Below, in pieces: positions 20,160 to 40,007 of a stretch of 64,000 bases of DNA; position 1 is the stretch's first letter, and the number at the start of each line of letters is the position of its first letter. The stretch spans positions 1 to 64,000 of the forward strand of contig WGNM01000007.1 in NCBI GenBank assembly GCA_016124575.1. The letters are read 5' to 3'. The translations under genes were made by a program, and so were the position numbers. The DNA comes from Cryomorphaceae bacterium. Its GTDB lineage: Bacteria > Bacteroidota > Bacteroidia > Flavobacteriales_D > Sanyastnellaceae. Below the pieces are notes generated by a model. It was given only the letters and a program-made list of their open reading frames with translations, did no database searches and was not told where the DNA came from.

Positions 20160-21401
20160 TTAACCCTCGCTTTGACTGTTCCCTTTCAATTTTTCAAACT
20201 CCAATCGAAGTGTGAAACGAAGCGTATTGGCAAGAGGGTTTTGCTGGGTTGTGCTGATCAAATAAGATAGATCGATTGCGAAGACCGTGTATCGCAAACC
20301 AGCTCCCAGAGTAATGTACTGGCGGTTACCTTTCGTGTAATGTTCGTAGAAGTACCCTGTTCTGAAAGCGAACTGCTTGTCATACCAGTATTCCATTCCA
20401 CCACCAATGTTAATCTCACGAAGTTCTTCTTTCAAGATACTACCTGACTGAACCGTTACATTTCCATTGTCGTCGAATACAACATTTCCCGGTGCATCGT
20501 AAAAAGATTGAACCATGCCAGTAGCAACACCAACATTCGGGTCTTTTCCTGAAACTATTTCCGCACCATCTTCTTGGCTATACACAGGTTGTGTTGGCAC
20601 CAAAAGTTTATTTGCATCAACAGTGAAAGTGAGTTCATTGTACGTATCCATCTCTAAAGTTAGAGCAGTACCCAATCTCAAATTGGTTGGAATAAAATCT
20701 TGCTGAGCAGTTTCCGTATAGCTCATCTTCGCGCCAATGTTCGAAATATTCAAACCCCAGTTCCAAACAGCATCTTTATCGCCCAATTTCACATCATCGT
20801 TCGTGTAGAACATCGAAACGTCAACCGCTACAGATCGACCTGGCCGAGAGTCTACTCCCTGAACGTTCGTAGCTCCTGTAAGGTTTGAATTGATAAATCG
20901 CGCTCCAATACCTCCTGAAAAACGATTAGACAACTTTTGAGAAAATGCCAAATCTATGCTAAACTCTGCAGGTTTAAAATCGCGTATTACTGCACCTGTT
21001 TGATCGGTAAACGTGATATTTCCAAGGGAAAAGAAACGAATTGCTCCCCCTACTGCTTGATTTTTATTCAGTTTCTGATATCCAGATAGATAAGCCAAAT
21101 TCATGTCATCAACCAAAGCACGTAACCATGGAGAATAAGACATCATCACCTCAAACTCATTCTTTGCGAAAATCATTTTCGCAGGATTCCAATGTATGCT
21201 TCCCGCATCACCTGATAAGGCAACACCCGCATCACCTAAACCACCCGAACGTGAGTCAGGGCCAATCATCAAAAACGGAACCGCTGTGGTGATTGTATTC
21301 AACTGTACGTCTTGAGCTCTTTGGGCTGCCTGACTCAACTGCGCATTTACATTAAAAGCACTGAGTATGAGAGTTGTAGCTACTAAATATCTCCCTATCA
21401 T
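20160..21401 (-). CDS. porV: Type IX secretion outer-membrane shuttle protein PorV (LptO)
   Basis: 413 residues with a signal peptide ending at VNAQ, followed by a FadL-like outer-membrane beta-barrel. The family core ITTAVPFLMIGPDSRSGGLGDAGVALSGD and IHWNPAKM are clear. PorV carries cargo from the translocon to the PorU sortase on the cell surface. The frame is open for 12 more residues upstream, but MIGRYLVATTLIL is the natural signal-peptide start. It lies downstream of porU, matching their joint role in the attachment complex. Confidence 0.92.
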   Translation of the reverse strand: MIGRYLVATTLILSAFNVNAQLSQAAQRAQDVQLNTITTAVPFLMIGPDSRSGGLGDAGVALSGDAGSIHWNPAKMIFAKNEFEVMMSYSPWLRALVDDMNLAYLSGYQKLNKNQAVGGAIRFFSLGNITFTDQTGAVIRDFKPAEFSIDLAFSQKLSNRFSGGIGARFINSNLTGATNVQGVDSRPGRSVAVDVSMFYTNDDVKLGDKDAVWNWGLNISNIGAKMSYTETAQQDFIPTNLRLGTALTLEMDTYNELTFTVDANKLLVPTQPVYSQEDGAEIVSGKDPNVGVATGMVQSFYDAPGNVVFDDNGNVTVQSGSILKEELREINIGGGMEYWYDKQFAFRTGYFYEHYTKGNRQYITLGAGLRYTVFAIDLSYLISTTQQNPLANTLRFTLRLEFEKLKGNSQSEG

Positions 21402-21457
21402 GGATGAGTTATTAAATGGGTCGGCAAATATACGCATAATCGTTGTAAAAGGTTAGG

Positions 21458-24400
21458 TTATCGCAGGATGACCAGTTTTTCAAATTTCTCTGCTTTTTGT
21501 CCCTCCGGGGTGGTCACCTGGACACGGTAAACGTAAACACCTCTACCTATAGTATCTCCAAAATCATCTAATCCATCCCAAGCAATCGGATCGCTTCTAA
21601 ATCCATCTGTGCGAACAACGCGATTCAAGGTTTTGACCATCTTACCTGAAACCGAAAATACTTGTATCTGGACATCTAAAAAAGCGCAAGCCTGGTTGTG
21701 CTCGAACATAAACTCGGTATGTGTAGTAAAAGGATTCGGGTAATTTAATACATGATCCAAGGCCAAGTTAGCACTTGAAGCAACAACAAACTCTGTATAC
21801 ACCTCTGATGAATTGTTATGGATGTCCCAAACCTTCAAGTTAAGTGTATGCAGTCCTTCTGATAAATCATTCAACTGATAACGAATTGCACCACTTTGAT
21901 ATGTGTCGAGGTCAGACTCATAAAAGTCATTCAAAACAATTGGCGAAGCACTCTCACCATCCAATATGGCCTTGATATCATGTCCGATGCCGCTGCCTAC
22001 TGTATTGATCCCATTTTCATCACGCATAACGGCGTACAAAAGCGGATTTTCATTGGTAATACCTCCAAAAACAAACGTTGAATCGTTCAAATACAGATTA
22101 ACATCTGGACCAACGGTATTCAACTCGGCCCCTTCTAATGCGCCACCGATGAAAAAGTCTTCCGAAAAACCATGAGCATCGAGATCTCCAGCCACAGCAT
22201 AATAAGACACGCGTGCCTTTCCGAACTCGTAGTTAATGTCGCGTGGAACCACAAATGTAAATTCGAAATCACCATTTGTTACACTGGCCTTTCCTCTATA
22301 AACTATGTTCTTTGTTACCTCAAAAGTGTAAGGCTGAGCAGCACCATCATTGTTCAACGTTTGTACTACCGATTCTTTATCCCAAACTGTAGGATATACA
22401 AACCCATTCATGGTTGTCAGTTTGTTTCCTTGTTGGTCTCCAACAAACCCTTTGAATGTAACCTGCTGTAGCGATTTTAAAGTGTCGGGCTGCGCCGGAT
22501 CAATGGTCACTCCGTTGATTTCAGTGGTGTAAACTTCCATCTTTGGATAGGCCATTTCAAGCGCTACGTCTCCCAGCAAACTGAAATTCCGTTTGTTACT
22601 CGAATCATTTACTTGATTGTCATTCTTGGTCGTCTCTGAAATGAAACCCAAAGTCAGCGGCTCAAAAATTTCGTCTTCAAGAGCGACATCAAAAAATGCT
22701 CTGTTCAATTGTTGGTTCGAACCACTGAAAACAATTCTTGTTGTTGTCAACATTGCTATGCATCCTCCATTTGGATTGAGGATTAGCATCTCTCCTGCCG
22801 ACCTCACTTCTGGATCATCAAATCTTGCCAACTCGCATGTCGCTGTCATGAATACTGGCAAACGATTGATGTTTGTCCATTCTTGAATAGTCGTCGTATT
22901 CAATACCCGTTCGTGCGCCCAGCCTCTTTCACCTCCATGACCGATGTAGTTAACGATCAAAGAACCATTCTGCACTCTTCTTCGAATGGCCTCTTCCGCT
23001 TCAGGATAGCGCTCACCTCCTGGAGTAGAAACTTGCTGATATGCATCCATGTATATTTTGGCAACGTCATATTCATTGTAGAGGTCATATACGGTATTCG
23101 CATGTTCGTCAGAATTAACCATGTGAACCACTTCTGTTGGACCGCCATTTCCGTCCATATCATCAGTCACCAATGTTATCGTGTTTCTCCAAGCTCCAAA
23201 AGGAGATGGATTCTCATCGCCAACGCAATAGGCACCTCCATCAACGGTTGTATTGGAGGCCCTGTAAACTTTCACTTTATTCAAGTAAGCCATGGCTTCT
23301 GAAAGTGTTTCGGAAGGGATACGTCCGACACCTATTTGCATTTTATCGCCCAAGCCCTCTCCATAAATATCGTCGAGAAAACCGAAATAGTCATCGCTGA
23401 CATACGAGTTCGTTGGAGAAACCGAATTTGCGCTTTGATAAGTAATAACGTAAGGAGAATTGGCTGCTAGGTTTCTGTTCTGATAAGTGCCGTCTCCAAT
23501 TATTTGAAGGTATTTCGGAGCCAATGTTTCGTCACCATCCGCGCGATCGTATAACATCTTCATGAGCATCTTTATCGCTGTAGGGTCGTTTGACCCTGAA
23601 GAGAATTCATTGAATACTTGGTTGGTTGTTACAATGGCAATAGACAACCCATCATTTTCATGAATGGCTGCATATTCCTCGGCGGCGGCAACAAACCGAT
23701 CATTTGTTACCACTACAAGATCGATATCATTCAATGCGTGCAAATCTTGGTTATCTATCGCTCCGATAGCTGTTGGTGTGAGGTAGTTAAAATCTGAGAA
23801 GACTATAAACTCTTTGAGTACCTCAGTAGAGACAGTAAACTCTAGGCCATTGTTTCCGGCAGGACTTGCAGAAACGATTTCAGGGCGTGTATGATCTGAA
23901 ATGTCCCATATCAGGGAAGCTGGACTTGTATTGAGCAGACTGAATTTCGAAATATTTCCAACACCAACCGATGCTGGATCCCGGAACTGCATTTGACTGC
24001 CCACTTGAATCAGCTGACGGCGTGTTTGCAAACGAAAAAAGTCAAGCCACCCTTCAGCATCGGGGACACCTTTTATGAAATTAGTGACAACATTGAGCGT
24101 ATTCCCAGAAGAGGGCGTGAAAGTTATTCCCGCATTGGCGATGTTAGCGATGTTGGAAGTAGCTCCGTCTGACGTCGACGAAGGTGTTAATGTTAGCTCC
24201 TCGCTCCCTATTGAGACTTCAAAGGCACTCGGCGTTCCCAATGATCGCGCAGCCACACTGGCTTCGAAATACGCAGGCTCTGAAAGTAGGTTTTGGACGC
24301 TGAAAGGATAGGTGATTGATAGCGTCAAATCAAATCGATCACCAAAAAACTCACGTCCTGATTTATTGAGATTAACATTCTCTGTTTCAATAAACTGGTG

Positions 24401-25303
24401 ATCTGTAAAGGCATCAACGACGTTGTTCTCATTCCCTGTCTCCAATGCTGCCAGTTGCATTCTCAGCGGCTCAGGATCGTCAACACGCAAGAAATAAAAG
24501 GCTGAATCAGACCACGGATGTTTGGAATGCAAGAAACGTTGATCAACCTCATTGAAAACCCATGAATCAGGACCCTTTCCGTAAAATAATATGTAATCAT
24601 TTTGATCGAAGCTTCCGTCGGATTCACCAGCTACCACGATGGCATTCTTCCTTGGATCATCATACCTTTCAATACTGTTCGAAAAAGGAAGTTGCTCTCC
24701 CCCATTGCCGTATATGTTTATGCTCTGAGGGTTTACATTCGACACATCAACACCCAGCGAAATCAAAAAGTTCCTATCTAACTTGTATACCCCATCTCTC
24801 GATAGAGCGAATTTGTACCATTGTCCTTCAGCCAATACCGAATGATCTGCCCAAGAAAGCGACCTGTTCCCCCTTGTTTTTGCACCCGTCGGGCGCATGT
24901 TCGCTGAAACCAATTTATAAAAGCGACCATTTTCTTTCCAGACGGTCAAAACCCGAACTTGCAAAATGTTTTTCAGTCGGACGTTGACTGTTCGCGATTC
25001 AAAAATCAATCCCTCGGGTGCAAGTTTTTTTTGTCTTTCGGTCAGTTGGCTTTCCAGTAATTCCGTTTTTTCGACATCAAATAATTCGATTTCAGACCCC
25101 TCGCTGAAGAAAACTTCGGTTTCCCAATGCTTCCACGGAAGTTCATCGGGCCAAATTGCATCATCGAATCCAATGCTCCCGACAGGGGGCGGAGGCACAG
25201 AAGAAACATCCTTCCAATCTATTGAAACACTTAGGGAGACGTCACGTTGCGCGATACCGGGCAGCGACAAAAGTGACATTAAAAATATGAGAGTTTTGTT
25301 CAT
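21458..25303 (-). CDS. porU: Type IX secretion C-terminal signal peptidase PorU
   Basis: A 1281-residue surface sortase of the gingipain (C25) peptidase family. The signal peptide is at 1-18. The peptidase core has the catalytic histidine in YIGHGGERGW (near 787) and the cysteine in TATCELARFD (near 818). The C-terminal domain (about 1190-1281: LNYPNPFTTHTEF, WDGLDDFGDTIGRGVYVYRVQV) is a type A sorting domain, as expected for PorU, which is itself a T9SS cargo. It cleaves sorting domains from cargo. It is transcribed with porV and divergently from the porP-like gene. Confidence 0.93.
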   Translation of the reverse strand: MNKTLIFLMSLLSLPGIAQRDVSLSVSIDWKDVSSVPPPPVGSIGFDDAIWPDELPWKHWETEVFFSEGSEIELFDVEKTELLESQLTERQKKLAPEGLIFESRTVNVRLKNILQVRVLTVWKENGRFYKLVSANMRPTGAKTRGNRSLSWADHSVLAEGQWYKFALSRDGVYKLDRNFLISLGVDVSNVNPQSINIYGNGGEQLPFSNSIERYDDPRKNAIVVAGESDGSFDQNDYILFYGKGPDSWVFNEVDQRFLHSKHPWSDSAFYFLRVDDPEPLRMQLAALETGNENNVVDAFTDHQFIETENVNLNKSGREFFGDRFDLTLSITYPFSVQNLLSEPAYFEASVAARSLGTPSAFEVSIGSEELTLTPSSTSDGATSNIANIANAGITFTPSSGNTLNVVTNFIKGVPDAEGWLDFFRLQTRRQLIQVGSQMQFRDPASVGVGNISKFSLLNTSPASLIWDISDHTRPEIVSASPAGNNGLEFTVSTEVLKEFIVFSDFNYLTPTAIGAIDNQDLHALNDIDLVVVTNDRFVAAAEEYAAIHENDGLSIAIVTTNQVFNEFSSGSNDPTAIKMLMKMLYDRADGDETLAPKYLQIIGDGTYQNRNLAANSPYVITYQSANSVSPTNSYVSDDYFGFLDDIYGEGLGDKMQIGVGRIPSETLSEAMAYLNKVKVYRASNTTVDGGAYCVGDENPSPFGAWRNTITLVTDDMDGNGGPTEVVHMVNSDEHANTVYDLYNEYDVAKIYMDAYQQVSTPGGERYPEAEEAIRRRVQNGSLIVNYIGHGGERGWAHERVLNTTTIQEWTNINRLPVFMTATCELARFDDPEVRSAGEMLILNPNGGCIAMLTTTRIVFSGSNQQLNRAFFDVALEDEIFEPLTLGFISETTKNDNQVNDSSNKRNFSLLGDVALEMAYPKMEVYTTEINGVTIDPAQPDTLKSLQQVTFKGFVGDQQGNKLTTMNGFVYPTVWDKESVVQTLNNDGAAQPYTFEVTKNIVYRGKASVTNGDFEFTFVVPRDINYEFGKARVSYYAVAGDLDAHGFSEDFFIGGALEGAELNTVGPDVNLYLNDSTFVFGGITNENPLLYAVMRDENGINTVGSGIGHDIKAILDGESASPIVLNDFYESDLDTYQSGAIRYQLNDLSEGLHTLNLKVWDIHNNSSEVYTEFVVASSANLALDHVLNYPNPFTTHTEFMFEHNQACAFLDVQIQVFSVSGKMVKTLNRVVRTDGFRSDPIAWDGLDDFGDTIGRGVYVYRVQVTTPEGQKAEKFEKLVILR

Positions 25304-26423: not shown

Positions 26424-26469
26424 TTAGTTATAAGCTCGCAAACAAGGAACTTTTTTGAACCTGGAAATC

Positions 26470-28215
26470 ATGAAAAAGTTGATTAAATCATTTTCGCTCT
26501 TCGCTCCAATTGTAGCCATTCTAATTTTGGCTTCATGCTCAAAGGAGCGCTCAGGCTCTACAGGATGGGCGTACAACACACCTGTCAACGGAGGATTTGA
26601 GAAAACTCCATACTTGGAACAAGAAACCGGTCCTGGACTTGTACTCATTGAAGGTGGAACCTTCACAATGGGTCGCGTGGAAGATGACGTGGTTTTTGGT
26701 TGGGACAACATTCCTCGACGTGTAACCGTGAGTTCTTACTACATGGATGAAACCGAGGTTACGAATATTTTCTGGTTGGAATACCTTCACTGGTTAGAGC
26801 GCATCTACGGTGATAGCTACCCTGAAATCGTAAACAAAGCACTTCCTGATACATTGGTATGGCGTGAAAAAATGGAGTACAACGAACCTTACGTTGAATA
26901 CTACCTGCGTCACCCTGCATTCCGCGACTACCCAGTTGTAGGTGTAAACTGGTTGCAAGCTAACGACTTCTGCGCATGGCGCACTGACCGTGTAAACGAA
27001 TTGATTTTGATTCGTGAAGGTTTGCTAGTGCATAACCCAGAAGCTCAAGTAGACGAAGATCACTTCACTACGGATGCTTATTTCGCAGGTCAATATGAAG
27101 GTGAAAAGGCTGGCGACGGTCTTCCTGATTTCCGTCCAGGATCGAGCGGTTACAGAAATGTACGCATGGAAGATGGTATCCTACTTCCTCGCTACCGCCT
27201 CCCAACTGAAGCTGAGTGGGAATATGCTGCTTTGGGTCTGATAGGAAACTCATACCAAGAATTGATCACCGACCGCAAAACGTATCCTTGGAATGGACAC
27301 TACGTTCGTAACGACAACAATGGTGGACGTTTTTACGGTCAAATCAACGCCAACTTCGTACGTGGAGCAGGTGACATGATGGGGGTTGCTGGTGCATTGA
27401 ATGACAATGGTGATATCACTACTCCTGTTTACCAATACGCTCCAAACGATTACGGCTTGTACAACATGGCTGGTAACGTAAGCGAATGGGTAATGGATGT
27501 TTATCGTCCACTTTCTGCTCAAGACAAGTCTGAATTCCGCCCATTCCGCGGTAACGTGTATCAAACAAAAGTGCTCAACTCAGAGGGTGGCATTGATGAT
27601 AAATATGACTACACCGTTTACGACATACCAGGCGTTGAATATTTCTTGACTGAATACGGCAAGCGATCAGCAGGTAAGCTAACAGATACGGATCAAAACC
27701 TGATTGACAATCTTTTGAACTACTGTACTCAAGCGAAAGAAGACTTGAAAAACCGTTTGGAAGAAGAGGCGAATCAGCGTATTCAAGATGGCATGGACTT
27801 GATTGTTTCTAGCGATTCTCCAATAGCTCCAGATTTGCGTGATGGAATTGCTGATTATATTGAGCACACACCAGGTGATTTGCGTGTACGTGACGTTACT
27901 GTTGCAGAAAACATCGATCGCAGAAACTATCGCACTGCGGATAATATAGACTATCAAGATGGTGACTTTGAAAGTTCGATTTACTTTGGACAAGAAGATT
28001 ACCAAACCAACGAGAATAGAATGTACGACTGGGGTTCAACTACTTTGGTTAACAACCGTTCACGAGTGTACAAAGGTGGATCATGGAGAGACCGCGCATT
28101 TTGGGTAATACCTGGAAGCCGTCGTTTCTTGGATGAACGCCGTTCAAATTCAACTCTTGGTTTCCGTTGCGCTATGACGCGTGTTGGAAGTCCGGTTGGA
28201 TTGAGTTTTGAATAA
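26470..28215 (+). CDS. gldJ: Gliding motility lipoprotein GldJ
   Basis: A 581-residue outer-membrane lipoprotein needed for gliding and for stable GldK-type T9SS parts. The lipobox ILASC gives a lipidated Cys near residue 23. A formylglycine-enzyme/sulfatase-modifying-like fold follows: IEGGTFTMGR, the middle YRLPTEAEWEYAALG and NMAGNVSEWVMDVYRP, and the end VYKGGSWRDRAFW with GFRCAM. A GldJ-specific insertion with coiled-coil character lies at about 405-480. The ATG at 26470 gives a proper lipoprotein signal; the frame opens earlier only at a TTG. It is followed by a strong terminator. Confidence 0.93.
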   Translation: MKKLIKSFSLFAPIVAILILASCSKERSGSTGWAYNTPVNGGFEKTPYLEQETGPGLVLIEGGTFTMGRVEDDVVFGWDNIPRRVTVSSYYMDETEVTNIFWLEYLHWLERIYGDSYPEIVNKALPDTLVWREKMEYNEPYVEYYLRHPAFRDYPVVGVNWLQANDFCAWRTDRVNELILIREGLLVHNPEAQVDEDHFTTDAYFAGQYEGEKAGDGLPDFRPGSSGYRNVRMEDGILLPRYRLPTEAEWEYAALGLIGNSYQELITDRKTYPWNGHYVRNDNNGGRFYGQINANFVRGAGDMMGVAGALNDNGDITTPVYQYAPNDYGLYNMAGNVSEWVMDVYRPLSAQDKSEFRPFRGNVYQTKVLNSEGGIDDKYDYTVYDIPGVEYFLTEYGKRSAGKLTDTDQNLIDNLLNYCTQAKEDLKNRLEEEANQRIQDGMDLIVSSDSPIAPDLRDGIADYIEHTPGDLRVRDVTVAENIDRRNYRTADNIDYQDGDFESSIYFGQEDYQTNENRMYDWGSTTLVNNRSRVYKGGSWRDRAFWVIPGSRRFLDERRSNSTLGFRCAMTRVGSPVGLSFE

Positions 28216-36047: not shown

Positions 36048-39000
36048 TTATTCACAAACTGTACCGAACGCGCCAAGGAACTGAAGAAGGTCACCAGCGT
36101 TGATGATACCGTCTCCGTTAAGGTCTTCAGGACAAGTGAAAGAGAACGTACATGACCCATCGTCTTGAGTAGCACCTGGGGTATAGTTGTCTGCATCTGG
36201 GTAAGTACAACCTGCGCAGCTTGTGAATTCACAAGAACCGTCATCAAGCGTTGCAACCGCATCGTAGTTACAAGCTGTTGGGTTCGTACAGCCAGCAGTG
36301 TTCGTTGAGTTCACAGCACCAGGAGTACCGTAAAGAACGAAAGAACTCTGCCAGTTAGCGGCAGCTGTGTTATCCAAAGCAGGATCGATCAACTCCAAAG
36401 AAGTACAAGCACCATCAGGAGCAAAAGGCCAAGGAGTAGTATCAGCATAAGACACAGTGTCAACAATGTTACCGAAGCCATCTTCAAGCGTGATGGTAGC
36501 AGAAGTATTGCTCAAGTTACCAAATTCGTTTTGGAACACTTGGTAACCGTTACCAGCGTATGACGCAGCATTCACAGCGATGATTACATATTCACCTGCC
36601 GCGATAACTGCACCTGATGGGAACGTGAAAGTGATCGGAGAGGTGAACGTAAATCCACCAACCTGAGCATCTGTTGCACCAGCGTTGTAAAGTTCTATAA
36701 ACTCCCAATCGAAGTCGTCACCTTGAGGAACACATGGGTTGTAGTGAATCTCGTTGATAACAATGGTTGGTAGCGTAAAGTAACACGACCCATCATCAAT
36801 TGTAGCTAGTGCATTGTAGTTAAGAGCCAAAGCGTCAGTACAACCAGTGTACGTACATGAGCCATCATCAAAAGTTGCAGCAGCATCGTAGTTGTCTGCA
36901 GCCGGATCAGTACATCCAGGAGTGTTACCACATGAACCATCGTCGATAACCGCTAGCGGATCGAAGTTCGGGAACGCATAGTCTGTACAGCCCCAACGTT
37001 GCACATCAAGCAAGTTACGTGGCTCAAGTTTGAACGCATTGAAAGAATAGTAGTTTGGACCTGTAACAGTGTATGTAACACCCAAGTCAACAGGAGTTAG
37101 AGCGATACCAAGGTCATCGATCACTGCGTTTCCAGTACCATCGCTGATAGCCCATTCTCCGAAACCAAGGTCACTTGCAGTAACGTCAGCAGTAAGTTGG
37201 ATAAGAACACCTTCCCACTGTTCGTCTGAAATATCGATTGTAGATAATAATTCAGCAGCAGGAAGCGGGTTACCGCTTGTAAGAACAATAGCAGTTGTGT
37301 TTGTAAGAAGCGTCAAGTTGAAAGACTCAGTAAGCGTACCTTCAACATCAACTTCATCGCCTAGGGCAACACCTGTACCTTGAACCCAAAGACCTGAGTA
37401 CGCGCCTGTACCATCTTGAATGGTGTAAAGACCAGAAGCATAAACAGCAGTAACAACACCATTGGTAACAACGAATGTACCAGCGAGGTTTGAATCGCCG
37501 TTAGCGTCTACATCAGACTGAAGTTCGAAGATGGTGTAGTTTGTTGCAACTGGTGCAGAAGAGTTTTGAGCACCAGGAGTTCCATTCACATCGTAAGAGG
37601 CTTGCCAGTTAAGCGGATCGCTGTTATCCAAAGCTGGATCGATCAACTCAAGAGAAGAACAGTTACCGTTAGCGCTCGGCCAAGGAGCGCCTGTATCGTA
37701 AGTAACCTCATCGATTACGTTTCCGAAAGCATCTAACAAAGCATCAGTTTCACCAGAGTTACCCAATGCCCCTGTGAAAGCAAATACTTGATATCCGTTC
37801 CCTGCATATGTAGCAGGGTTTAGAGCCAAAACTACGTATTCACCAGCAGCAAGAGTTGTTCCTGTAGGGAAAGTAAACGTGATACCACTAAAAGTGAATC
37901 CTTCTACATTAACAGCAATTGCTTCAGCATTGTATAGTTCAAGGAATTCGAAATCGGCATCATCACCTTGCGCAGTGCACGGGTTGTAGTAAATTTCGTT
38001 AATTACCAAGTTTGGCAATGTGAAGTAACAAGTCCCATTGTCTGAGTTAGCAGCAGCATTGTAGTTCAAAGCAAGAGCATCGGTACAACCCTCGATAATA
38101 CATGAACCATCGTCGAAAGTAGCAGCAGGATTGTAGTTAATTGCAACTGGGTTTGTACATCCAGGCACGGCATCACAAGAACCGTCGTCAATTACAGCAG
38201 CAGGATCGTAGTTCGGGAAGGCGATATTTGTACAACCCCATTTCTGAAGGTCACCAGCATTACGAGGCTGAACTTTGAAAGCGCTGAAGCTGTAGTATAA
38301 AGGACCAGTCATTGTGTAAGTATCACCAGGTGTAAGAGGTGTAGCTAAGAAAGCCAAGTCGTCACCAAGGATATCACCAGAAGTATCGTTCAAAGAGAAT
38401 TCTCCGAATCCAAGATCTCCGTTCACAACATCACCGGTAACAGTTACAAGAACACCTTCCCATTGTTCTGCATTTGCAGCTAAGGTAGTAAGCGCTTCGG
38501 CGGCTGGTAATGCGTTACCAAAAGAGTTAACAGTAATCGTTGTGTTAGTAAGCAAAGTCAAGCTAAACCATTCGATGATCATACCTGAAACGGTAACATC
38601 ATCACCTACGGCAACAGATGCACCTTCTACCCAAAGTCCAGAGAAAGCACCGGTACCATCTTGAATAGTGAAGAAATTGCTAGCAGGGTAAACAGCAGTT
38701 ACAACACCATTGGTAGTCAAGAAATCGCCATTAAAAGTGCTTTCATTGTTTACATCAACTGAACCTTGAATGGTTGCAATGGTTTCAACAGTACCAGACG
38801 CACATGGACCTGTGCTAGCTGCACCTGGGCTGCCAGTGAGGTTACAAGAAGGCTGCCAGCTAGCTGCCAAGGTATTGTCAAGGTTTAGGTCGATCAATTC
38901 AAGTGTTGGACCGAAACCATCAGGGCTGATAGGCCATGGAGCAGCATCATCAAAGGTAACTGAGTTAACTGTGTTACCGAGGTTATCTACAATTGCCACC

Positions 39001-40007
39001 ACTTCACCATTGTTGCTCAAGCCACCAGTGAAAGAAAACACCTGGTAACCATTGCCTGTGAAGAAAGGAGCATTTAGAGCAAGAACGATGTATTCTCCTG
39101 GAGCTATTGAAGCAGCCGGAAAGTTAAGCGTAACTCCAATCATTGCGTAACCGGTTAGGTCAACCGTTACCGCACCATTGTTATAAATTTCAACAAACTC
39201 ATAGTTTGAGTCGGGATAGCCCAAAGCATCGTTTGGGTTGTAGTTGATCTCAGTGATGATCAAGTTCTGGTTTGATGGAGCAGAAGTACCTGCGCATGCG
39301 CAACTACCGTCGTAAACATCACCCGTAGTCAACGGATTGCCATCGTCACAAGAGTCGCCAGAGAAAGCACAAGAGCCATTATCGATTGTAGCAGCAACAT
39401 CGTAGTTACAAGCCAACACGTTTGTACAACCAAGACAAGAGAAATCGCAAGAACCGTCGTCAACAGTTGCTAATGCATCATAGTTACAAGCGCCTGCATC
39501 GGTACAACCAGAAACTGCGTTCGCATCGAAACCAACTAGAACAAGGTCGCGAAGACGTTTTGCAGACGGGCTGTTCGCAGATGAAAAACGCAAAACAACG
39601 TTTGATCCGAGAGTAGACAAAACAGTAGGGCCCGAAGTAATGTAAGTTGAACCTGTTGGGGTTGGGGAATCAAAGGTTTGTGCAGTAAAAGTAGAACCTC
39701 CATCGTTAGACACTTCAACAGTGATTGGACCGTCGATACCTGAGCCAAATTTGGCCACCGAAAAAGTCAGCTCAACGCTACTATATGACGAAAGGTCGTA
39801 AGAAGAAGTGATTACTTGACCAGTTGTTGCTGTTACGTTTGCATAACCACCAGCAGCGGTTGAAAACGTCACATTGTTCACCGTCCAACCAGCTGGTGCT
39901 GATCCTGTGCGGAGATCTTCAGAAAAGATAGTAACCTGAGCTTGCACCGACAAAGCAGTGAAGATGGTTGCCAACACTAACCCGAAGTAGAAAAGTGGTT
40001 TTTTCAT
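36048..40007 (-). CDS. Large secreted lamin-tail-domain protein with Cys/Asp repeats
   Basis: 1319 residues with a signal peptide (1-24, ending QAQ) and a jelly-roll-like domain (about 25-165). Three lamin-tail domains start near 247 (LIITEINYNP), 664 (LVINEIYYNP) and 1079 (IVINEIHYNP). Two OB-like domains (TIQGSVDVN... and IFELQSDVDANG...) start near 406 and 825. About ten short repeats of the form C-T-(D/N)-x5-N-Y-(D/N)-x6-D-(D/N)-G-(S/T)-C are scattered between them. The C-terminus DLNGDGIINAGDLLQFLGAFG resembles a dockerin-type calcium loop, and no usual T9SS type A or B sorting domain is seen. It is probably a cell-surface or adhesion protein. Confidence 0.85.
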   Translation of the reverse strand: MKKPLFYFGLVLATIFTALSVQAQVTIFSEDLRTGSAPAGWTVNNVTFSTAAGGYANVTATTGQVITSSYDLSSYSSVELTFSVAKFGSGIDGPITVEVSNDGGSTFTAQTFDSPTPTGSTYITSGPTVLSTLGSNVVLRFSSANSPSAKRLRDLVLVGFDANAVSGCTDAGACNYDALATVDDGSCDFSCLGCTNVLACNYDVAATIDNGSCAFSGDSCDDGNPLTTGDVYDGSCACAGTSAPSNQNLIITEINYNPNDALGYPDSNYEFVEIYNNGAVTVDLTGYAMIGVTLNFPAASIAPGEYIVLALNAPFFTGNGYQVFSFTGGLSNNGEVVAIVDNLGNTVNSVTFDDAAPWPISPDGFGPTLELIDLNLDNTLAASWQPSCNLTGSPGAASTGPCASGTVETIATIQGSVDVNNESTFNGDFLTTNGVVTAVYPASNFFTIQDGTGAFSGLWVEGASVAVGDDVTVSGMIIEWFSLTLLTNTTITVNSFGNALPAAEALTTLAANAEQWEGVLVTVTGDVVNGDLGFGEFSLNDTSGDILGDDLAFLATPLTPGDTYTMTGPLYYSFSAFKVQPRNAGDLQKWGCTNIAFPNYDPAAVIDDGSCDAVPGCTNPVAINYNPAATFDDGSCIIEGCTDALALNYNAAANSDNGTCYFTLPNLVINEIYYNPCTAQGDDADFEFLELYNAEAIAVNVEGFTFSGITFTFPTGTTLAAGEYVVLALNPATYAGNGYQVFAFTGALGNSGETDALLDAFGNVIDEVTYDTGAPWPSANGNCSSLELIDPALDNSDPLNWQASYDVNGTPGAQNSSAPVATNYTIFELQSDVDANGDSNLAGTFVVTNGVVTAVYASGLYTIQDGTGAYSGLWVQGTGVALGDEVDVEGTLTESFNLTLLTNTTAIVLTSGNPLPAAELLSTIDISDEQWEGVLIQLTADVTASDLGFGEWAISDGTGNAVIDDLGIALTPVDLGVTYTVTGPNYYSFNAFKLEPRNLLDVQRWGCTDYAFPNFDPLAVIDDGSCGNTPGCTDPAADNYDAAATFDDGSCTYTGCTDALALNYNALATIDDGSCYFTLPTIVINEIHYNPCVPQGDDFDWEFIELYNAGATDAQVGGFTFTSPITFTFPSGAVIAAGEYVIIAVNAASYAGNGYQVFQNEFGNLSNTSATITLEDGFGNIVDTVSYADTTPWPFAPDGACTSLELIDPALDNTAAANWQSSFVLYGTPGAVNSTNTAGCTNPTACNYDAVATLDDGSCEFTSCAGCTYPDADNYTPGATQDDGSCTFSFTCPEDLNGDGIINAGDLLQFLGAFGTVCE

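Follow-up and report, generated by a model that had tools for sequence, protein, structure and literature searches.

The genome of a Cryomorphaceae bacterium (family Sanyastnellaceae; GenBank assembly GCA_016124575.1) encodes a large set of mostly Sec-type proteins that share a cysteine-flanked C-terminal tail made of dockerin-type calcium loops. Quite possibly, although we stop short of calling it probable, the tail serves in this genome as a C-terminal sorting or anchoring tag. The protein under study, of 1,319 amino acids (aa), is encoded at 36048..40007 on the minus strand of positions 1 to 64,000 of contig WGNM01000007.1; this whole stretch of 64,000 nucleotides is called the window. The tail comes in two forms. 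The two-loop form is a dockerin plus a cysteine clamp, for which the name "GC-type" already exists, and the one-loop form, which ends the window protein, follows directly on a DDGSC-type repeat in many of its carriers. Genomes, contigs and loci are given below by our own handles (G, C and L numbers) where needed.

Results

A shared tail at the C-terminus of 46 proteins

The window protein agrees with a preliminary description that saw in it a lamin-tail protein with ten repeats and a calcium-loop tail. Three of its stretches match the Pfam lamin-tail domain LTD (E of 4e-46), it contains ten D[DN]G[ST]C repeats (eight DDGSC, one DNGSC and one DNGTC), and its C-terminal sequence is CPEDLNGDGIINAGDLLQFLGAFGTVCE. 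Two other stretches match the start of the ExeM/NucH nuclease profile (E of 3e-12, far below the whole-protein cut-off), which fits the "OB-like" domains mentioned there. By our home-made heuristic the protein has the Sec signal expected of a substrate of the type IX secretion system (T9SS). The absence of a type A or type B T9SS sorting domain was borne out, as a profile check for a hidden domain (NCBIfam, E ≤ 1) found none of type A, B or C; NF033681 was the only family matched at this threshold, and the protein contains none of the matches to type A (150) or type B (49) listed for the genome. All 114 genomes of the family have a match to it at E ≤ 1e-10, as an orthologue or through a shared domain, and pieces that are 93% and 89% identical occur in a Flavobacteriales metagenome-assembled genome (MAG; L083 and L084). 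The plasmid records searched gave no match, and phage records gave one weak match, a stretch of the marine virus record AG-345-P14 (MH319765.1, 63134-63277) that is 54% identical to the DDGSC repeats (E of 2e-3).

A DNA pattern for DLNGDG matched 14 times in the genome, and a single-loop profile of 16 rows gave at least 81 matches at E ≤ 1 (best 3e-16; 150 of 167 candidates scored), which is far beyond chance. In the stretches around these matches the tail forms the C-terminus of 46 open reading frames (ORFs) of at least 150 aa, as one or two units that each run from a Cys through a 12-residue loop and a helix to a second Cys. By a 15-bit rule 24 of these carriers have one loop and 22 have two, and in three or four of the 24 a weak second loop can be seen by eye. 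The count leaves out six ORFs with a loop match (three shorter than 150 aa and three with the loop far from the end) and the loci L002, L008 and L012, which are without a tail. The loop model ends 0 to 3 residues before the stop in 39 of the 46 carriers, the last cysteine is the penultimate residue in 32, and the unit has a cysteine on both sides in 41. Among 70 12-residue loops that fit a motif restricting positions 1, 2, 3, 12 and 13, two positions that the motif leaves free show the residues typical of calcium-loading EF loops: 67 loops have D or N at position 5, and 60 have N, D or S at position 9. Calcium binding had been proposed for the Asp-rich DDGSC repeats, for which we found no support; the calcium-type loop lies in the tail instead.

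According to the same heuristic, 40/46 carriers have a Sec-type start, compared to 103/231 other ORFs, and the six without one include three that run off the start of the contig or stretch. The bodies in front of the tail are diverse and include, among the 25 of 60 Pfam families listed, MopE-type metal-binding, FG-GAP, carbohydrate-binding, GH16, endonuclease I, reprolysin-like and lysyl-oxidase-like domains.

Three short ORFs of 50, 70 and 59 aa (3' ends at C17:8791, C59:18440 and C38:5463; L028, L033 and L042) consist of little beyond the tail and may be broken genes, assembly errors or free tails. The ORF at C31:57599-59365 (L017), just downstream of a tail gene, has a loop unit in its middle, with another 274 residues up to its end, and may reflect a fusion or a shift of the reading frame.

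The two-loop form is a dockerin

In an alignment of 21 two-loop tails, picked by hand and trimmed at the first cysteine, columns D4, D15, C29 and D43 are invariant and C1 and C25 nearly so. In another alignment (A3) the invariant columns are partly built in, because its rows were picked by their Cys/Asp pattern; for a further one (A4) the rows were chosen by a motif without the last cysteine. All 34 motif-selected two-loop tails match Dockerin_1 (PF00404) at E ≤ 1, and at the same threshold all 34 match the GC-type dockerin family NF041540, whose NCBI product name is "GC-type dockerin domain-anchored protein". When isolated, the first two-loop tail in each search scored above the cut-off: 30.1 bits against 22.9 for PF00404, and 32.7 bits against 29 for NF041540 (L016:3371-3538). 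At full length, three proteins (L001, L003 and L035:4914-6401) stay below the NF041540 cut-off, and at E ≤ 1e-3 Dockerin_1 is found in 8/46 and NF041540 in 13/46 full-length carriers. An AlphaFold2 model of a two-loop tail has a predicted local distance difference test score (pLDDT) of 95.6, and its best Foldseek match is 2y3n_B, a type II dockerin (listed as Bacteroides cellulosolvens), with a template modelling score of 0.87, a root mean square deviation of 1.0 and 47% identity; a sequence profile of the two-loop tail again puts 2y3n_B first (E of 5e-10). Because of these family matches and the structural match, the two-loop form is a dockerin. Like PF00404 and 2y3n it consists of repeats of a calcium loop and a helix, of which the two-loop paralogues have the two that define a dockerin; it differs in the Cys clamp around each unit.

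The tail of the window protein, in contrast, has one loop and not the two repeats of a dockerin. Dockerin_1 gives it 12.2 bits (E of 0.22; cut-off 22.9), and NF041540 does not match it at E ≤ 1.

The one-loop form and the GCTY repeat

A DDGSC repeat ends at most 12 residues from the loop in 14/24 one-loop proteins and in 0/22 two-loop proteins. The repeats in this position are mostly of one type, GC.Y, which accounts for 11 of the 14 that adjoin a tail, for 7 of the 81 other repeats in tail proteins, and for 0 of 22 in other ORFs (Fisher p of 1e-8, the repeats not being fully independent). Among relatives of the whole window protein (L083-L115), 31/33 end in the tail, two of them being its own copy and a duplicate; this count favors the tail, because most of these loci are best matches to the protein. 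The two exceptions are L084, which is cut short, and L085, from a Bacteroidetes bacterium MAG, which ends in a type A signal. In genus g179, which has fewer two-loop tails, the relatives L123 and L124 end in a GCTY repeat plus one loop and L125 runs off its contig.

We read the end of the one-loop proteins as a composite module roughly as long as a two-loop dockerin, with the repeat in place of the first loop. A model of the composite end has moderate confidence (pLDDT 75), and Foldseek found nothing for it at E ≤ 0.001, with four partial dockerin alignments at E of 7 to 9. The preliminary description had called the signal undescribed. This does not hold for the two-loop form, which PF00404 and NF041540 match; only the one-loop form with the GCTY repeat was given no name by these scans.

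The tail stands where T9SS signals stand

The genome, of 3.68 Mb, encodes at least 150 type A (150 of 212 candidates scored) and 49 type B T9SS signals, and none of these matches falls in any of the 46 carriers. The other 45 carriers were checked for type C in an NCBIfam scan at E ≤ 1e-3 (first 25 of 78 families listed); the same scan found choice-of-anchor families Q in three carriers, I in two, and B and L in one each. Choice-of-anchor families change anchors between species.

Related proteins within the genome carry different ends. The tandem array at C43:199413-216564 (L035 and L122) contains seven related exported-protein genes, of which four end in type A, two in a two-loop dockerin and one in neither; tail and type A members are 37 to 65% identical over the aligned parts, and among them lies an eighth gene, unrelated in its body, that has a one-loop end. 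Residues 410-593 of the window protein, a repeated domain, resemble C31:8182-10377, which has a type A end, as has the domain relative L085 in another MAG. Carrier C19_6273 resembles C1:17786-20524 (type A end, 42.7 bits), and carrier C8_55060 resembles C4:123580-126741, both being choice-of-anchor L, where the type B end is borderline (35.2 and 29.9 bits in two scans; cut-off 35). As carriers hold none of the scored type A and B signals, have such swapped paralogues and include choice-of-anchor families, the tail stands in this genome where a sorting or anchor tag stands. The earlier suggestion of a dockerin-like sorting or docking signal used instead of a T9SS domain fits these results.

The array on C43 adjoins what by eye looks like the end of a barrel receptor, and a homologous array is present in G041 (C3, L173), from another family.

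A lineage trait within a T9SS-bearing family

The two-loop profile matched in 6/395 genomes of a phylum sample, this genome included (16 candidates scored per genome), and, in an order sample of 299 genomes, in 110/114 of its own family and 15/185 others (up to 22 candidates scored per genome). Among the 88 family genomes that are at least 80% complete, two-loop tails average at least 21 in 11 of 19 genera, with 0 to 2 in genera g177 and g186. Type A signals are found in 114/114 family genomes and SprA in 110/114, the tail-poor g177 and g186 included. The co-occurrence with T9SS that had been proposed for an order-wide search is thus not specific. The tail is a lineage trait within a T9SS-bearing lineage and does not track T9SS. 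Since the two-loop tail is nearly confined to one family while tail-poor genera keep T9SS, it is more than a plain signal for that system.

The fewest type A candidates were found in the most tail-dense small genera. In loose first-look counts, from which 26/114 genomes below 80% completeness were left out, tail and type A numbers gave a rho of -0.68 over the 88 genomes, of -0.39 (p of 0.10) over the 19 genera and of -0.35 (p of 0.14) after genome size, so replacement of type A by the tail across genera is only suggestive. Stretches of 397 kb from tail-poor G452 and 376 kb from tail-rich G446 have 0 and 2 tails and 8 and 6 type A ends, which is too few.

These data also bear on the possibility, in our view the least likely of those considered here, that the tail adds another class to the T9SS signals, one recognized by the translocon itself or by a dedicated shuttle. 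PorV serves the type A tags and PorP/SprF-like shuttles serve those of type B, and families of C-terminal domains (CTDs) with dedicated shuttles are known, according to the available part of PMC12618676. A T9SS is present in the genome, and tail and type A alternate on homologous bodies in one array. On the other hand, the dockerin fold is unlike the Ig-like sandwich of type A, PorV-family copies do not increase with the tail (see Discussion), and the two-loop tail occurs in very few genomes of the phylum sample.

Features of the window and the nearby T9SS block

The features are listed in Table 1. That a T9SS block lies near the window protein was confirmed by the PorV-family and Peptidase_C25 proteins, the latter of which we take to be PorU-like; the FGE-sulfatase-domain protein is presumably GldJ/GldK-like. 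The block at window positions 15239-41934, which reaches from ahead of PorV to beyond the tail protein, keeps its gene order in G402 and for the most part in G446, both of the same family, and this collinearity extends to T9SS genes and other genes alike, with the tail protein included. For this reason the nearness of the tail protein to T9SS genes can be inherited synteny.

Table 1. Coordinates of the window protein, its parts and neighboring proteins
Feature	Position in window	Strand	Basis
Tail-bearing protein, 1319 aa	36048..40007	-	ORF; Sec-type start; LTD x3; ExeM/NucH-type stretches x2
Sec signal peptide, residues 1 to about 24	39936..40007	-	Sequence and heuristic test
Best of three lamin-tail stretches, residues 665-770	37698..38015	-	Pfam LTD
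Terminal DDGSC repeat, GCTY type, residues 1266-1286, directly before loop	36150..36212	-	Repeat scan
One-loop dockerin-like C-terminal tail, residues 1292-1319, Cys near both ends	36051..36134	-	Loop profile, sequence
PorV-family protein (context only)	20160..21437	-	NF033709 match at C46:20196-21290
Peptidase_C25 protein (context only)	21458..25303	-	Peptidase_C25 domain
FGE-sulfatase-domain protein (context only)	26455..28215	+	FGE-sulfatase domain

Discussion

The composition and position of the tail, its predicted two-loop fold, its alternation with type A and type B tags and its restriction to one lineage are direct observations. Starting from these, a sorting or anchoring tag could work as follows. 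After Sec export the loops would bind calcium, and the cysteines would close each unit by a disulfide. The folded tag may then dock to one shared receptor, many proteins to one, which would place or hold the tail proteins at the outer surface; such a receptor would not be a recognizable Pfam-type cohesin. In the window protein, where the first loop of the pair is missing, the GCTY-type DDGSC repeat may take its place and give a composite tag of similar length. A more encompassing version of this idea is that in one bacterial family of the order a Cys-clamped dockerin, or a half-dockerin plus GCTY/DDGSC repeat, came to act as a calcium-dependent C-terminal sorting tag, partly replaced the T9SS type A signals and uses a receptor yet to be identified. 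We regard that complete version as rather unlikely.

Several observations weigh against a sorting role. Outside the order, the two dockerin matches examined, in G258 and G013, are internal to proteins with a type A end (31.3 and 45.6 bits, respectively, against a cut-off of 23), so there the module is not an end tag; this comparison left aside the genomes G034 and G131, which belong to the genus of G013. An internal sub-threshold dockerin match together with a type A signal was also seen outside the family in L173:1473-5198 (in G041, with Dockerin_1), L174:1539-5261 and L175:8195-13759, all on the minus strand. Given these internal modules elsewhere, employment as an end tag in place of a T9SS signal characterizes this genome and, as far as seen, its family. 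The search for a receptor yielded little. PF00963 cohesin was not found in the genome at E ≤ 1; in the family, cohesin matches occur in 19/114 genomes at E ≤ 0.1 and in 5/114 over the cut-off, from tail-poor and tail-rich genera alike, and we rejected a canonical cohesin as the receptor. We also rejected an increase of PorV-like shuttles with the tail, as PorV-family copies number 1 to 4 in small tail-rich genera and mostly 4 to 7 elsewhere, including large tail-rich genera. The two-loop model matches a single protein in G041, which has one loop and is 35% identical over 379 residues to C43_209463 of our genome. Its gene belongs to the homologous array, together with those for type A proteins and for a Plug-domain receptor, and when this locus was examined as that of a single-tail genome, no candidate partner stood out.

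The tail could be thought of as only a calcium- and disulfide-stabilized module of secreted proteins with no sorting role, which would fit the lack of a partner in the cohesin and PorV-family searches and the internal position of similar modules in type A proteins outside the order. We consider this improbable, though less so than a further class of T9SS signal, as the tail is at the extreme C-terminus of unrelated bodies, in place of type A and B signals, and choice-of-anchor proteins are among its carriers.

A serious rival, if still an unlikely one, ranking above the absence of a sorting role, is a cellulosome-like scaffold, in which the tails dock to cohesin-like modules on another secreted protein with a T9SS signal of its own, and the tail proteins are either carried along with it or assembled on the outside. 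The nearest structure is a type II dockerin, and the carriers include GH16, endonuclease I, reprolysin-like and carbohydrate-binding domains. There is also a precedent by annotation. In Candidatus Stygibacter (Cloacimonadota), several signal-peptide proteins with C-terminal dockerins occur in a bacterium with T9SS-type signals, and these dockerins pair by annotation with a tandem-cohesin scaffoldin bearing a T9SS-type CTD (PMC8542988, from the text available to us). It is this pairing that makes a scaffold with cohesins too diverged for PF00963 a serious rival. In our genome, in contrast, no recognized cohesin or scaffoldin was found, and cohesins over the cut-off are rare in the family.

To return to the sorting or anchoring tag, other C-terminal tags show how such a system can look. 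T9SS signals of type A (TIGR04183), B (TIGR04131) and C (NF033708) are C-terminal on Sec-type proteins like the tail, and homologous bodies carry either the tail or a type A or B signal; the tail differs in having no sequence match to them and a predicted helical dockerin fold rather than an Ig-like sandwich. PEP-CTERM, GlyGly-CTERM and MYXO-CTERM likewise put one C-terminal tag on many unrelated proteins, with homologous bodies bearing other tags, and for GlyGly-CTERM both the many-to-one logic and tag swapping are described in the part of PMC3237569 available to us. The tail has an acidic loop and one short helix and, unlike these tags, no membrane helix with a basic cluster (no membrane-length stretch or basic end was found), and no processing enzyme is known for it. 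The Bacteroidetes studied in PMC5831590 and PMC6247017 are without dockerins, according to the portions of those papers available to us, and a literature search over titles and the beginnings of abstracts gave no paper that presents dockerin tails of Bacteroidota as sorting tags.

Dockerins are known as the plugs of multi-enzyme complexes, and here dozens of exported proteins have such a module as their common C-terminus, in a bacterium with a full T9SS, where it alternates with T9SS tags on related bodies. If the tail does sort proteins, this would mean a calcium-dependent display route with a receptor still to be found. It also sets a clear target, as the receptor would be expected in tail-rich genera and may be missing from tail-poor genera of the same family.

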